This document shows positions 13,557 through 58,773 of a DNA stretch of 64,000 nucleotides, in pieces. Both the position numbers and the translations under genes were made by a program. The stretch spans positions 186,001-250,000 of the forward strand of contig NZ_FNHL01000004.1 of assembly GCF_900103715.1 (NCBI RefSeq). Reading direction: 5' to 3'. The stretch's first letter is position 1. Each line of letters begins with the position of its first letter. The notes under the pieces were generated by a model. That model made no database searches. It saw nothing but the letters and a program-made list of their open reading frames with translations, and was not told the origin of the DNA. The DNA comes from Halogranum gelatinilyticum. GTDB lineage: Archaea; Halobacteriota; Halobacteria; Halobacteriales; Haloferacaceae.

Positions 13557-13826
13557 ATGGTCCTCGAACAGGAGACGAACAGTGACGAGACGGCCAGTGG
13601 CGAGGCTGTGCGTGCGAGGTGGCCGCCCGCCGTCGCCGCGCTGCTCGGTCTCGGCTCGCTCTTCGGCGTCGGACTCGCGGTGACAGCCTACTTGGAGCCG
13701 TACGTCTGGCCGTCGGTGCTCGTCGGGGTTCCGGCGGGACTCGTCGCGGGCGTCGTCGTCACCGTCGTGAGCTACTGGCTGTTGACGCGCTGGCAGCGGA
13801 GGGCTGCGGCACAGCACGAAGACTGA
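13557..13826 (+). CDS. Small membrane protein (89 aa)
   Basis: After a hydrophilic Glu/Ser/Thr-rich N-terminus of about 22 residues there are two membrane helices (about 24-45 and 50-76), then a basic C-terminus (RWQRRAAA). No family is recognised. The last 55 nt overlap, tail to tail, the end of the SprT-like gene on the other strand. Confidence 0.65.
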   Translation: MVLEQETNSDETASGEAVRARWPPAVAALLGLGSLFGVGLAVTAYLEPYVWPSVLVGVPAGLVAGVVVTVVSYWLLTRWQRRAAAQHED

Positions 13827-14362
13827 TACTGGCTGTGTTCGCGGACGAGTTTGCAGTCGCGGTAGCGACGCGCCACGACCTGCTCGCAGTCGCCACAGGA
13901 GAGGACGAACTTCGGCGTCGCGAAGCGTCGGCACTTGACCGGCGTGTCGAGCGTTTCGGCGCGGTGCTTGAACCGGGAGCCGTGGTTAGTCGTCCCGAAC
14001 CGCTGGAACTGCTCGACGTGGACGAGTTCGTGTCGGAGGGTTGCGGCCCACTCCTCGCGGTCGAAGCTCTGGGCTGCTTCCCAGGTGAGTGAGACGGTGC
14101 AGGTCGGCGGGTGGGGGTCGGCCGTTGCGTCGTGACTGGACCAGTCGACTGGCGTGCCGACCGCGGCGTCGGGGATGCGCGGGCGTTTGACGGCGGCGGC
14201 GCGGCGTTTGGCGCGAGTCGAGACCTCCCACTCGACGCGCGAGAGGTCGACTGCGAGGTCGGTTGTCTCGGTTTGGGTGTGGGCGTAGCGGCGGGACCAC
14301 GCGACTAGGGCGGCGTGGCTGTCGAGGGTCTCGTACGCGTCGGGGACGGCGTCGTCTGCCAC
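13772..14362 (-). CDS. SprT-like zinc metalloprotein
   Basis: The 196-residue protein has the SprT/Spartan-type active-site motif HELVHVEQFQRFG near residue 112 with a downstream acidic/His element (NHGSRFKHRAE), followed by a zinc-ribbon-like segment with CGDCEQ and, near the C-terminus, SCC. In eukaryotes relatives degrade DNA-crosslinked proteins; in archaea the function is not established. The final 18 codons lie inside the convergent small membrane gene, which is unusual, so the C-terminus may be extended relative to relatives. Confidence 0.85.
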   Translation of the reverse strand: MADDAVPDAYETLDSHAALVAWSRRYAHTQTETTDLAVDLSRVEWEVSTRAKRRAAAVKRPRIPDAAVGTPVDWSSHDATADPHPPTCTVSLTWEAAQSFDREEWAATLRHELVHVEQFQRFGTTNHGSRFKHRAETLDTPVKCRRFATPKFVLSCGDCEQVVARRYRDCKLVREHSQYQSSCCAAALRCQRVNSQ

Positions 14363-14816
14363 GATTGGCGTGTTGTGGGCGAGTGGTATGAATGGTTCTG
14401 CTATCTGTGGCGGAGTCTGTTAGGGCGAGGAAGTGCGTAGGCGATTGTGTAACTGGAGACGCCTCGAAAGCCCCGACGCGCTGGACTCGGTGACCTCGTT
14501 GCGCGCGCTCCCTCCGGTCGCGTGCTAACGTCGGTCGCCTTCGCCCAGCGCGTCGCCCCTTTCAGTCCCGCCCGCGACAGCCACGTCCTCCCCAGCCGAT
14601 TCGCTCACTTCGCTCCCGCTCGTTCGCTCATCCCTCGCGTGCGTGTCTCGCGGCACAGAGGCCGCGAAGCCACGCGCCACGACCAGTTGGACACTCCACG
14701 GGGCTTTCGAGGAGTCCTCTTCAGCGGACGAGACCAATTTGACCGACACGAACGAATCGACGAGACACACCATCACTCGATAAACGTTCAAACCGATCCG
14801 TGCCGACACGTCGAGT
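14363..14816. other. Intergenic gap containing a dispersed repeat element
   Basis: Most of this gap is the inverted-repeat-bounded element at 14462-14712. The remaining left part (14363-14461) is the likely promoter of the leftward SprT-like gene, and the right part (14713-14816) precedes the Cys-rich small gene, with a TATA-like ATAAACG near 14779. No protein-coding frame looks genuine. Confidence 0.6.
14462..14712. repeat. Dispersed element, copy 1, with 14-bp terminal inverted repeats
   Basis: The stretch begins with CCTCGAAAGCCCCG and ends with its exact complement CGGGGCTTTCGAGG. Inside, on the minus strand, are blocks shared with the second copy at 57779-58001: CGTGGCTTCGCGGC, GCGAGGGATGAGCGAACGAG, AGCGAATCGGCTGGGGAGG and GGGACTGAAAGGGG. 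There is no transposase and no clear target-site duplication. It could be a non-autonomous mobile element (MITE-like) or a structured RNA family. Confidence 0.7.
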
Positions 14817-15092
14817 ATGAAAGTCAAGTACCGCGTCACGAACCCTGAGAGTCCCGAACCGGACTACGAAGCCGTCGAGACCGTCCCCTGCTGTCAGGAG
14901 TGTCTCGACGCCTGGGAGCGCGAGACGTTCACCTTCGAGGCGGGCGTCGACCTCGACACCGACGAGTCGGTCGCCATCGTCTGCGTCCGCGCCTACGAAC
15001 GCACCGACGAGGGCGAGTTCGAGAGCGCGCTTCCGATGTATTACTGCCCCTTCTGCGGGACCGGCATCCTCTGTGTCGAAGTCGACGACTAG
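14817..15092 (+). CDS. Small Cys-rich hypothetical protein (91 aa)
   Basis: The acidic product has two Cys clusters, VPCCQECLD near residue 25 and YYCPFCGTGILC near residue 78, which together could bind one zinc ion. The region between them is a predicted beta-rich segment (SVAIVCVRAYE). No family is recognised. It ends 6 nt before the convergent CARF-type regulator gene. Confidence 0.65.
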   Translation: MKVKYRVTNPESPEPDYEAVETVPCCQECLDAWERETFTFEAGVDLDTDESVAIVCVRAYERTDEGEFESALPMYYCPFCGTGILCVEVDD

Positions 15093-56444: not shown

Positions 56445-57734
56445 ATGAGCATTCTCGACGACGCCCGCGAACTGGCCGCGAGCGGCCCGCTGTGTGACGC
56501 CTGTCTCGGCCGGGTCTTCGCCGAGCGGAGTTTCGGGTTGACGAACGCCGAGCGGGGCCGAAGCCTCCGCGTCGCCGCCGCACTGGACGCCGACGAGCCG
56601 TTCGAGCCGGTCGATACCGCAGACTGCTGGGTCTGTGAAGGTCTCTGTGACGAGTTCGACGAGTGGGCCGAACGCTGCGCGGAGAGCATCGAGGGCACGG
56701 AATTCGGGACGTACCAGGTCGGAACGCGCGCGCCGCCGCTCGTCGAGGAGAACGAGCTACTCCTGCGTGAGGGCGCAGGACTGCCCGAGGACGCGGGTGA
56801 GCTGTTCAAATCGGAGTTCAACCGCGAGGTCGGCAAGCGCGTCGGTCGGCTGACGGAGACGGAGGTCGACTTCGGTCGGCCGGACGTCCAGTTCACGCTG
56901 GACCTCGAAGGCGACACGGTCGAGACGCGCGTCCACTCGGCGTTCGTCTACGGCCGCTACCGAAAGCTGGAACGCGACATCCCGCAGACGGAGTGGCCGT
57001 GTCGCGAGTGTGACGGCAGCGGCTACCAGGGCAAACAGCCCTGTGACTACTGTGGTGGCTCGGGCTACCTCTACGACGAGAGCGTCGAGCAACTCACCGC
57101 GCCGGTCGTCCTCGACGTGATGGACGGCATCGAGGCACTGTTCCACGGCGCGGGCCGCGAGGACGTCGACGCCCTGATGCTCGGCACGGGCCGACCGTTC
57201 GTCATCGAGGTGAAGGAGCCGCGACGGCGCGTCGTCGACGTCGAGCAGCTGGAGGGCGACATCAACGCCTTCGCCGAGGGCAAGGTCGAGGTCGAAGGGC
57301 TTCGGCTCGCGACCTACGACATGGTCGAGCGCGTGAAAGAACTCGACGCCAACAAGACCTACCGCGCGGAGGTCGAGTTCGGCGACGACGTGACCGCCGA
57401 CGCACTGAAGGAAGCACTCGCGGAACTCGACGGGGCGACGGTCGAACAGTACACGCCTCACCGGGTCGACCACCGGCGCGCCAGCCTCACCCGGACGCGG
57501 GACGTCTACGACGCGGACGGCGAACTCCACGACGCCCGCCACGCCACCGTCGATATCCACGGCGCGGGCGGTCTCTACATCAAGGAACTCGTCTCCGGCG
57601 ACGAGGGGCGGACGAACCCGAGTCTGGCAGGCATTCTCGGTGTCGACGCCGTCGTGACGGCACTCGACGTGGTCGCGGTCGAGGGCGAGGAGGAAGCCTT
57701 CGAGGACGAGGAGTTCTTCAAGCAGGCTGAGTAG
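56445..57734 (+). CDS. pus10: tRNA pseudouridine(54/55) synthase Pus10
   Basis: The 429-residue protein is the archaeal Pus10, which makes pseudouridine at positions 54 and 55 of tRNA. The N-terminal THUMP-containing part has the zinc ligands CDACLGRVF and CWVCEGLCDEF. The catalytic part has SAFVYGRYRKLERDIPQT, a zinc-knuckle insertion CRECDGSGYQGKQPCDYCGG, and the catalytic Asp in GREDVDALMLGTGRPF near residue 245, then KELDANKTYRAEV and GLYIKELVSGDEGRTNPSLA region. The length (about 430) is typical. Confidence 0.96.
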   Translation: MSILDDARELAASGPLCDACLGRVFAERSFGLTNAERGRSLRVAAALDADEPFEPVDTADCWVCEGLCDEFDEWAERCAESIEGTEFGTYQVGTRAPPLVEENELLLREGAGLPEDAGELFKSEFNREVGKRVGRLTETEVDFGRPDVQFTLDLEGDTVETRVHSAFVYGRYRKLERDIPQTEWPCRECDGSGYQGKQPCDYCGGSGYLYDESVEQLTAPVVLDVMDGIEALFHGAGREDVDALMLGTGRPFVIEVKEPRRRVVDVEQLEGDINAFAEGKVEVEGLRLATYDMVERVKELDANKTYRAEVEFGDDVTADALKEALAELDGATVEQYTPHRVDHRRASLTRTRDVYDADGELHDARHATVDIHGAGGLYIKELVSGDEGRTNPSLAGILGVDAVVTALDVVAVEGEEEAFEDEEFFKQAE

Positions 57735-57759: not shown

Positions 57760-58110
57760 AATTATCCATCTTCAGTGGCGCGTGGCTTCGCGGCGTTTCA
57801 TCGCCGCGAGCCACTCGTGCGAGGGATGAGCGAACGAGCCTGCGAGTGAGCGAATCGGCTGGGGAGGGTGTGGCTGCGGCGGGTGGGACTGAAAGGGGAC
57901 GGGCTCTCGGGGAAGACGGACGATGTAAGCACCGCAGTCGAGTGAAACGAGACGAGGAGCACAGCGAGTCCATCGACCCGAGAGTGCGTGGGCTTTCGAG
58001 GTGGTCCCAGCGAATCCAGTGCATGGTGCCGAATTGCTCACACCACCAGGACACACGACAACGAGTCAGAGAAGCAAATCGCTTAGTCACCCCACCGAAA
58101 CCACCCGAGT
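57735..58110. other. Gap holding dispersed element copy 2 and the rnhB promoter
   Basis: Apart from the terminator the gap is filled by the second copy of the dispersed element (57779-58001). A TATA-like CTTAGTC centred near 58085 is 26 nt before the rnhB ATG. No gene is seen. Confidence 0.6.
57779..58001. repeat. Dispersed element, copy 2 (opposite orientation to copy 1)
   Basis: On the plus strand it has the same ordered blocks as the minus strand of 14462-14712: CGTGGCTTCGCGGC, GCGAGGGATGAGCGAACGAG, AGCGAATCGGCTGGGGAGG, GGGACTGAAAGGGG and, at the end, GGGCTTTCGAGG. The left terminal inverted repeat of copy 1 is absent here, so this copy is truncated on the side of pus10. Confidence 0.7.
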
Positions 58111-58773
58111 ATGATTCACGTCGGAGCCGACGAAGCAGGCAAAGGGCCAGTCTTGGGCCCGATGGTCGCCGCCGCTGTCCGCGCCGATTCCGACGCTCTC
58201 CCCGACGGCATCGACGACTCGAAGCGCGTCAAGCCAGCACGTCGGACGGAAATCGCTGAAACCCTCAGACGCCACGACGACATCACGGTCGGCGTCGGCA
58301 TCGTCCCGACAGAGCAAATCGACGATCCCGAGACGGATATGAACTCCCTGACGGTCGCGGCGCAGGTCGAAGCCGTCGCGAGCGTCGCACGCGAGGGTGA
58401 CACCGTCGTCGTCGACGCAGGCGACGTGAGCGAGGCACGGTTCGGGCGGCGGGTCCGCGAGGGCGTGTCGGAGAGAGCAGACATCCGAATCGAGGTCGTC
58501 TCGGAACACGGTGCCGACGAATCCCACGCAATCGTCGGCGCGGCGAGCATCGTCGCGAAGGTCGAGCGCGACCGGCAGGTCGAGAACATCTCCGAGGAGT
58601 ACGCCGACTACGGCCCGGTCGGCAGCGGCTATCCGAGCGACCCGAAGACGAGGGAGTTTCTCAAAAGGTACGTCGCCGAGACCGGTGACGTGCCAGCCTG
58701 CGCGCGTCGGTCGTGGTCGACGTGTGCGGACCTTCTCGCTGCCCAAGAGCAGTCGTCGCTGGGCGAGTTCTAA
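58111..58773 (+). CDS. rnhB: Ribonuclease HII
   Basis: The 220-residue protein has the RNase HII catalytic residues: GADEAGKGPVLGPMV at the start (Asp-Glu), VDDSKRVKP region, VVVDAGD (Asp) and SHAIVGAASIVAKVERDR with the final acidic residue. It removes RNA from RNA-DNA hybrids, including single ribonucleotides. The length is normal for archaea. The last 4 nt overlap the convergent DUF7511-like gene. Confidence 0.96.
   Translation: MIHVGADEAGKGPVLGPMVAAAVRADSDALPDGIDDSKRVKPARRTEIAETLRRHDDITVGVGIVPTEQIDDPETDMNSLTVAAQVEAVASVAREGDTVVVDAGDVSEARFGRRVREGVSERADIRIEVVSEHGADESHAIVGAASIVAKVERDRQVENISEEYADYGPVGSGYPSDPKTREFLKRYVAETGDVPACARRSWSTCADLLAAQEQSSLGEF

Follow-up and report, generated by a model that had tools for sequence, protein, structure and literature searches.

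Among described systems, the bacterial MITE-like ERIC and BOX elements come closest to the repeat reported here: they are likewise 100-300 bp long, palindromic, intergenic, free of open reading frames, modular and structured, occur in tens of copies and were presumably spread in trans. Compared by description rather than by sequence, the present family is set apart from them by its confinement to Halobacteria, a conserved fold that is specific to one strand and includes a tandem-GA ladder, and an age as deep as the class. The MITEs of Haloquadratum and Halobacterium are also short and noncoding with terminal repeats, but share their ends with a known transposon, whereas none was found here among the IS605 types searched. 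The large structured noncoding RNAs HEARO, OLE, GOLLD and ROOL have elaborate covarying structures and are partly tied to mobile DNA. In contrast to these, the present family, known here from DNA alone, has no Rfam match, numbers tens of copies on the chromosomes and has no partner gene. The PATEs of Haloquadratum are short, palindromic and transposase-free, undergo repeat-mediated core deletion and receive insertions into their palindromes (PMC3119063). The PATEs and SMR elements of Haloquadratum walsbyi thus have in common with the present family a haloarchaeal host, the lack of a transposase, palindromy, core deletions between direct repeats and palindrome insertions; unlike PATEs, complete copies here carry terminal inverted repeats, show no IS605-type end match and conserve their fold far inside the element. 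Archaeal interspersed repeats are poorly catalogued; the open-licence papers searched hold no description of this family, and it is apparently undescribed so far.

The window, i.e. the whole stretch of 64,000 nucleotides that was analysed, covers C4:186001-250000 of the 3.77-Mb genome of Halogranum gelatinilyticum (G000; 11 contigs). The initial annotation had noticed an element there bounded by perfect 14-bp inverted repeats, and the geometry is exact: CCTCGAAAGCCCCG (14462-14475) is fully complementary to CGGGGCTTTCGAGG (14699-14712), the two enclosing 251 bp, and together with their flanks the arms reach 18 nt at 94% (14458-14475 / 14699-14716). That it is noncoding likewise stands, since an ORF check, Pfam and a codon-usage gene caller gave no plausible gene over the element: it is crossed by two chance ORFs of 104-108 aa, neither with a Pfam family above the cut-off, and no gene was called in 14363-14816. 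With MITEs it shares terminal inverted repeats, shortness (251 bp) and the lack of a transposase. For both strands the fold is better than that of any of 200 dinucleotide-shuffled sequences, with z-scores of -4.6 and -5.2. The folding strand, hereafter S, is the minus strand, with its 5' end at the high coordinate. Downstream in the S direction, a SprT-like gene (13772-14362, minus strand) starts ~93 bp past the modelled element; upstream lies a divergent 91-aa ORF (14817-15092, plus strand), recognised by the gene caller and with a weak zinc-ribbon match in Pfam.

As delimited by the inverted-repeat arms, alignments and two covariance models, R1 for domain B and R2 for domain A, the whole element spans 14456-14716 on the minus strand, as do all its parts. 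Read along S, it begins with the 5' inverted-repeat arm (CCTCGAAAGCCCCG plus flank; 14699-14716), delineated by arm comparison and by the intact inverted A arms of other loci, followed by a linker (GTGGAGTGTCCAACTGGTC; 14680-14698) that is partly common to copies with module C, described below (..CCCGTGGAYTGGYCARCCGGT..). Domain B (14572-14679; R1, 106.7 bits, E 1.1e-23) comprises hairpin 1, whose stem covaries in the alignment (GTGGCTTCGCGGCCTCTGTGCCGCGAGACAC; 14643-14673), hairpin 2 (14598-14632), in which the alignment and the ladder count show 2-bp Watson-Crick steps alternating with tandem GA/GA, and a near-invariant unpaired core evident from the alignment (GGCTGGGGAGGACGTGGC, family pattern TGGnGAGGnnGTGG; 14580-14597). 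In this copy hairpin 2 reads GAT-GA-GC-GA-AC-GA-GC...GC-GA-AG-TGA-GC-GA-ATC on S, with one extra base. Domain A (14456-14573; R2, 111.1 bits, E 3.8e-23) is made up of a GAAAG/CTTTC outer stem, a 3x3 GGG/GGG internal loop, a long covarying stem and an AGCAC...GCGC inner motif, and includes the 3' inverted-repeat arm CGGGGCTTTCGAGG (14462-14475), whose extent follows from arm and end comparison and which corresponds to the family 3' end GGGCTTTCGAGGTGTTCTC.

The relative proposed 43 kb away on the opposite strand is real as well: 57776-58007 (plus strand) aligns best over 158 bp, at 80% identity and E 3.3e-33, with domain B at 57776-57882 (R1) and domain A at 57881-58007 (R2), S here being the plus strand. 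This second copy sits between pus10, which ends at 57734, and an RNase HII gene that starts at 58111. Nor are the shared blocks chance similarities of just two sites, for there are ~50 copies in this genome and more throughout Halobacteria. BLASTN gave 41 matches at E<=1e-6 in the H. gelatinilyticum genome, and matches in 21 of 40 related genomes; in the own genome R1 recovers 47 copies of domain B, and R2 some 31 good ones of domain A. Across sampled Halobacteria, R1 is positive in 86/145 genomes and 35/58 genera, several of these genomes having at least 26 copies each among the matches listed. In a phylum sample of 197 genomes R2 is positive in 28, all within the window's order, and none of the genomes listed from outside that order or class has a match. 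The exact 19-base end sequence was matched in Halomarina, Halonotius, Halogranum, Halorussus and Natrinema and in two bacterial records, the latter probably reflecting chance or contamination. The whole element is found on plasmids in 3 records only, and the phage records and viral contigs searched have no match to the family. At the gathering score, Rfam 15 matched no family in the window or the related plasmid loci, including the ~560-bp plasmid region discussed below, and a permissive search gave nothing credible.

The family shows a characteristic modular order along S: an optional CCTCGAAAGCCCC, the linker, domain B, domain A and GGGCTTTCGAGGTGTTCTC. Domain B is laid out as hairpin 1 (..GTGGCTTCGCGGC..GCCGCGA..CAC..), the GA ladder of hairpin 2 and the invariant TGGnGAGGnnGTGG core. 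Domain A begins with GACTGAAAGGGG; the GAAAG of this sequence pairs with the terminal CTTTC and so encloses the long covarying stem. The domain A motif AGCACCGCAG..CGAGGAGCGCAG stands in for the GA ladder in some B domains. Copies consist of BA, of a solitary B plus the 3' end, of a solitary A, or of a composite A(-)-C-B(+) with an extra hairpin module C, and in Halonotius terminal repeats flank a plain A(-)-spacer-A(+) palindrome. A good left arm, with <=2 mismatches of 12, is present in 3/52 copies as against 35/52 for the right arm; in most copies, unlike 14462-14712, the left arm is absent or degenerate, and ends common to every form are difficult to delimit. Intact inverted A arms occur in L224, L225, L229 and L235 and in the Halonotius loci L241, L243 and L247. 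In light of the Halonotius palindrome, the left repeat of 14462-14712 can be read as a left A-arm stub, so that the arm at 14699-14716 would be what remains of another domain A, in inverted orientation, that has lost its hairpin. Module C (CACCGCGCCGACCCTTCCCCATGAGACCGCG..CGCGGTCAGTGCCCGTGG) was observed as an upstream extra at C1:322110, C1:862704 and C2:476734 and in L224, L225 and L229, and its letters resemble part of the plasmid region (CAGCACCGCGCGCCGACC).

Folding and covariation argue for the structured family that had been offered as one of two readings, with strong covariation and a strand-specific tolerance of G.T. In domain A (alignment A6, 37 copies) 97.1% of cells are paired and 29/34 pairs have changed on both sides, against 30-47% paired and 6-8 such pairs in slid controls. 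In domain B (A5, 47 copies) the figures are 95.7% and 19/25, and sliding the partner by 1-3 columns lowers the pairing of A6 and A5 to 13-52%. Alignment A9 (43 copies, mostly of other genera) has 94.2% of cells paired and 20/25 pairs compensated. Alignments of the A5/A6/A9 type were fitted to the covariance models and hence lean toward them; an unfitted MAFFT alignment agrees with the model-fitted picture of the fold. A palindrome acting as double-stranded DNA predicts G.T equal to A.C; the observed excess of G.T in S thus indicates that the fold of the S strand matters. The counts are 30 vs 4 on the MAFFT alignment, in stems common to the folds of both strands, and 43:3 and 69:6 on the model alignments, these last two summing to 112 vs 9, and the asymmetry is weaker across genera (45:13). 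S folds better than its complement in every own copy, and both the sign of G.T over A.C and the pairing hold in all four gene-orientation contexts. Of the own copies 31/47, and of the others 25/43, follow the ladder pattern GAT-GA-NN-GA-NN-GA-NN...NN-GA-NN-GA-NN-GA-ATC, and 332/336 of the step pairs are standard; GA steps with a preceding pyrimidine are a known setting for sheared tandem G.A pairs. For the conserved G/GA motifs a box C/D reading was dropped as the box letters vary, and a G-quadruplex reading was considered and then dropped.

The alternative reading in the initial annotation, a non-autonomous mobile element, also gains support: sister-species sites are empty, and the solo, partial and inverted-composite forms are what an element mobile in the past would be expected to leave. 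The site of 14462-14712 is empty in both relatives examined, G001 of the same genus and G002. At C1:215433 (L204), the element is gone in G001 and has left the remnant GGAAACCCACGCGCCA, which consists of two element ends fused at the repeat GCGCGTGG, i.e. a repeat-mediated core deletion. Seven sites are occupied in the own genome and in sister genomes alike, with the orientation unchanged at each; the stems there show 28 (domain B) and 25 (domain A) both-side changes that still pair, with 14 and 15 broken, and copies mostly keep pairing while the intergenic DNA nearby hardly aligns. Copies at common sites are no more similar to each other than to paralogs, and replacement by another copy is therefore possible. 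Mean identity is flat, at 0.81 within the own genome and 0.806 both between genomes and within G001, and the most similar pair of copies reaches 95.4% against a mean of 81%; these identities show no recent burst or genome-specific homogenisation. The family is old, with saturation under structural constraint most simply explaining the flat identities. No target-site duplication is visible, the intergenic flanks being too diverged for clean empty/filled pairs, and among the IS605 types searched no enzyme that would mobilise the element turned up.

By the codon-usage gene caller all copies are intergenic. For 52 copies, the orientations of the upstream and downstream genes are same/same in 16, opposite/same in 16, same/opposite in 11 and opposite/opposite in 9, and the bias within tandem gene pairs (16 same vs 9 opposite) is insignificant. 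Without an orientation bias, many copies would be left without sense coverage by neighbouring genes. TATA-like signals are not enriched upstream of S (1/46 copies) and a conserved promoter was not found there; with the mixed orientations, this leaves both a leader or terminator role and a shared promoter unsupported.

A conserved, GC-rich noncoding region of ~560 bp that ends in domain A is carried by 161-168 haloarchaeal plasmid records, the number varying with the query; pNRC100 is among them, and identity to the query across genera is 77-96%. Examples are L258:2536-3115, L267:2506-3072, L165 2464-3100 and pNRC100 (NC_001869) 146379-147077. R2 scores on 17 plasmid loci run from 120.7 down to 33 bits. 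The region is heavily structured. Head-to-head with it stands a gene labelled 'DNA-binding protein', whose 288-299-aa product matches the OB fold weakly (PF01336, PF21473); this link suggests a nucleoprotein partner. The own genome carries a plasmid-type region of this kind on contig C5. The same contig has two very similar domain-A-like sequences of another subtype (C5:97884-98003 and C5:3575-3693), one of them ~1.3 kb upstream of a TnpB domain.

We give about even chances to the reading that this is an old non-autonomous intergenic repeat that spread long ago and in which the S strand functions in its folded state, RNA being a likelier form for it than single-stranded DNA. Under this proposal 14462-14712 would be one copy of an old, imperfectly palindromic Halobacteria repeat, the archaeal analogue of elements of the ERIC/BOX kind. 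In the most complete forms, two inverted A hairpins stand beside terminal repeats of the CCTCGAAAGCCC type; in Halogranum, domain B with its hairpin 1, tandem-GA ladder and invariant G-rich core lies between the two A hairpins, and the present element would be a full-ended copy minus its left A hairpin. In the past the copies may have been dispersed by an enzyme supplied in trans that acted on their ends, and selection on the fold, rather than recent transposition, would keep them recognisable, with S functioning as an RNA domain of any covering transcript rather than as single-stranded DNA. RNA is preferred mainly because of the G.T tolerance, which is typical of RNA folds more than of DNA folds. 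More tentatively, the family might constitute a new class of structured RNA in Halobacteria, large, modular and strand-specific, with a ~560-nt plasmid parent by the gene of the OB-fold protein, there taken as nucleic-acid-binding, and dozens of chromosomal copies; the tandem-GA ladder helix would then be part of the RNA, and the chromosomal copies would be independently maintained, solo or composite. It is rather unlikely that S instead acts as folded single-stranded DNA, the chromosomal copies being offshoots of a plasmid element for replication or transfer that serves as a single-strand origin or promoter, as in conjugative leading regions, and is recognised by the adjoining OB-fold protein. 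The position of domain A at the end of the plasmid region facing the OB-fold gene, the many MPF_T-typed plasmids among its carriers, the lack of a promoter signal upstream of S and a constraint on the fold that is independent of gene orientation would all suit such a function, and tandem-GA and GCGAAGC-type motifs also give stable DNA structures. Besides the G.T tolerance, however, variation in the plasmid region favours neither strand (GT 26, AC 27), the MOB-suite calls for its plasmids are all non-mobilizable, and domain B is not seen on it.

As a dispersed noncoding repeat the element is ordinary; what is unusual is how deeply it is conserved, that its fold is specific to one strand, and that it has a relative on plasmids. 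It is improbable that the copies are ordinary MITE debris, i.e. neutral palindromic insertions whose fold is a by-product of the palindrome: neutral palindromes would yield neither the 29/34 compensated pairs, nor G.T far above A.C in one strand, nor pairing kept at old common sites, and the family lacks near-identical copies, a partner transposon among the IS605 types searched and a visible target duplication, even though terminal inverted repeats, the lack of an ORF, intergenic multicopy occurrence, empty and filled sites, and partial and nested copies are all as such debris would have them. Class-wide, old and structurally selected in one strand, the repeat is thus not simply recent-transposon junk. 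It is very improbable that the copies are what is left of IS200/IS605-type transposons, as in haloarchaeal PATEs, or of the omega-RNA ends of such transposons. None of the TnpA/TnpB loci of the own genome has domain B, and their sole domain-A match is well away from the element ends, at a point >1 kb upstream of a TnpB domain; 14462-14712 and the Halonotius copies have the terminal inverted repeats that PATEs lack, and no orientation clustering along contigs is apparent by eye, whereas the core deletion at GCGCGTGG and the inserts in hairpin 1 do recall PATEs. Hardly any weight falls on a role in the mRNAs of the neighbouring genes, where the element would act in cis as a riboswitch, leader or terminator: both sites in the window have a gene in the S direction starting about 100 bp downstream, but the 52 copies show all four gene arrangements and the functions of their neighbours are unrelated.

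The repeat makes it testable whether intergenic repeats act as folded RNA or folded single-stranded DNA, and the pNRC100 relative in Halobacterium NRC-1 brings a laboratory model within reach; in cells with molar potassium the tandem-GA ladder also deserves attention as a structural motif in itself. Hairpin 1 holds a near-identical palindromic insert (..CCGCGAGGGAACCGAGCGGAAGCCAGCAAGAGC..GCTCTTGCG..) at C1:713625 (L144), C2:105430 (L146) and C1:862704 (L159), which can be likened to the SMR elements inserted in PATE palindromes. A subtype of domain B (GGCGCGCGCTGGC...) at C1:143857, C4:253308, C4:328674, C4:418762 and C7:9372 is mostly followed by a (G)AGCGCGAGCAGTCGG-like sequence or CGGTGTGTTTCG in place of domain A. 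A 45-nt Halonotius end, used as a clue to a transposon, had no haloarchaeal match. In the Halonotius loci L241, L246 and L251 the flanks past the terminal repeats are partly common (..TTTAGATAAGCCGG..GGAAC / GTTCTCAATCCAATCGC..), suggesting that the element ends are longer in this genus.
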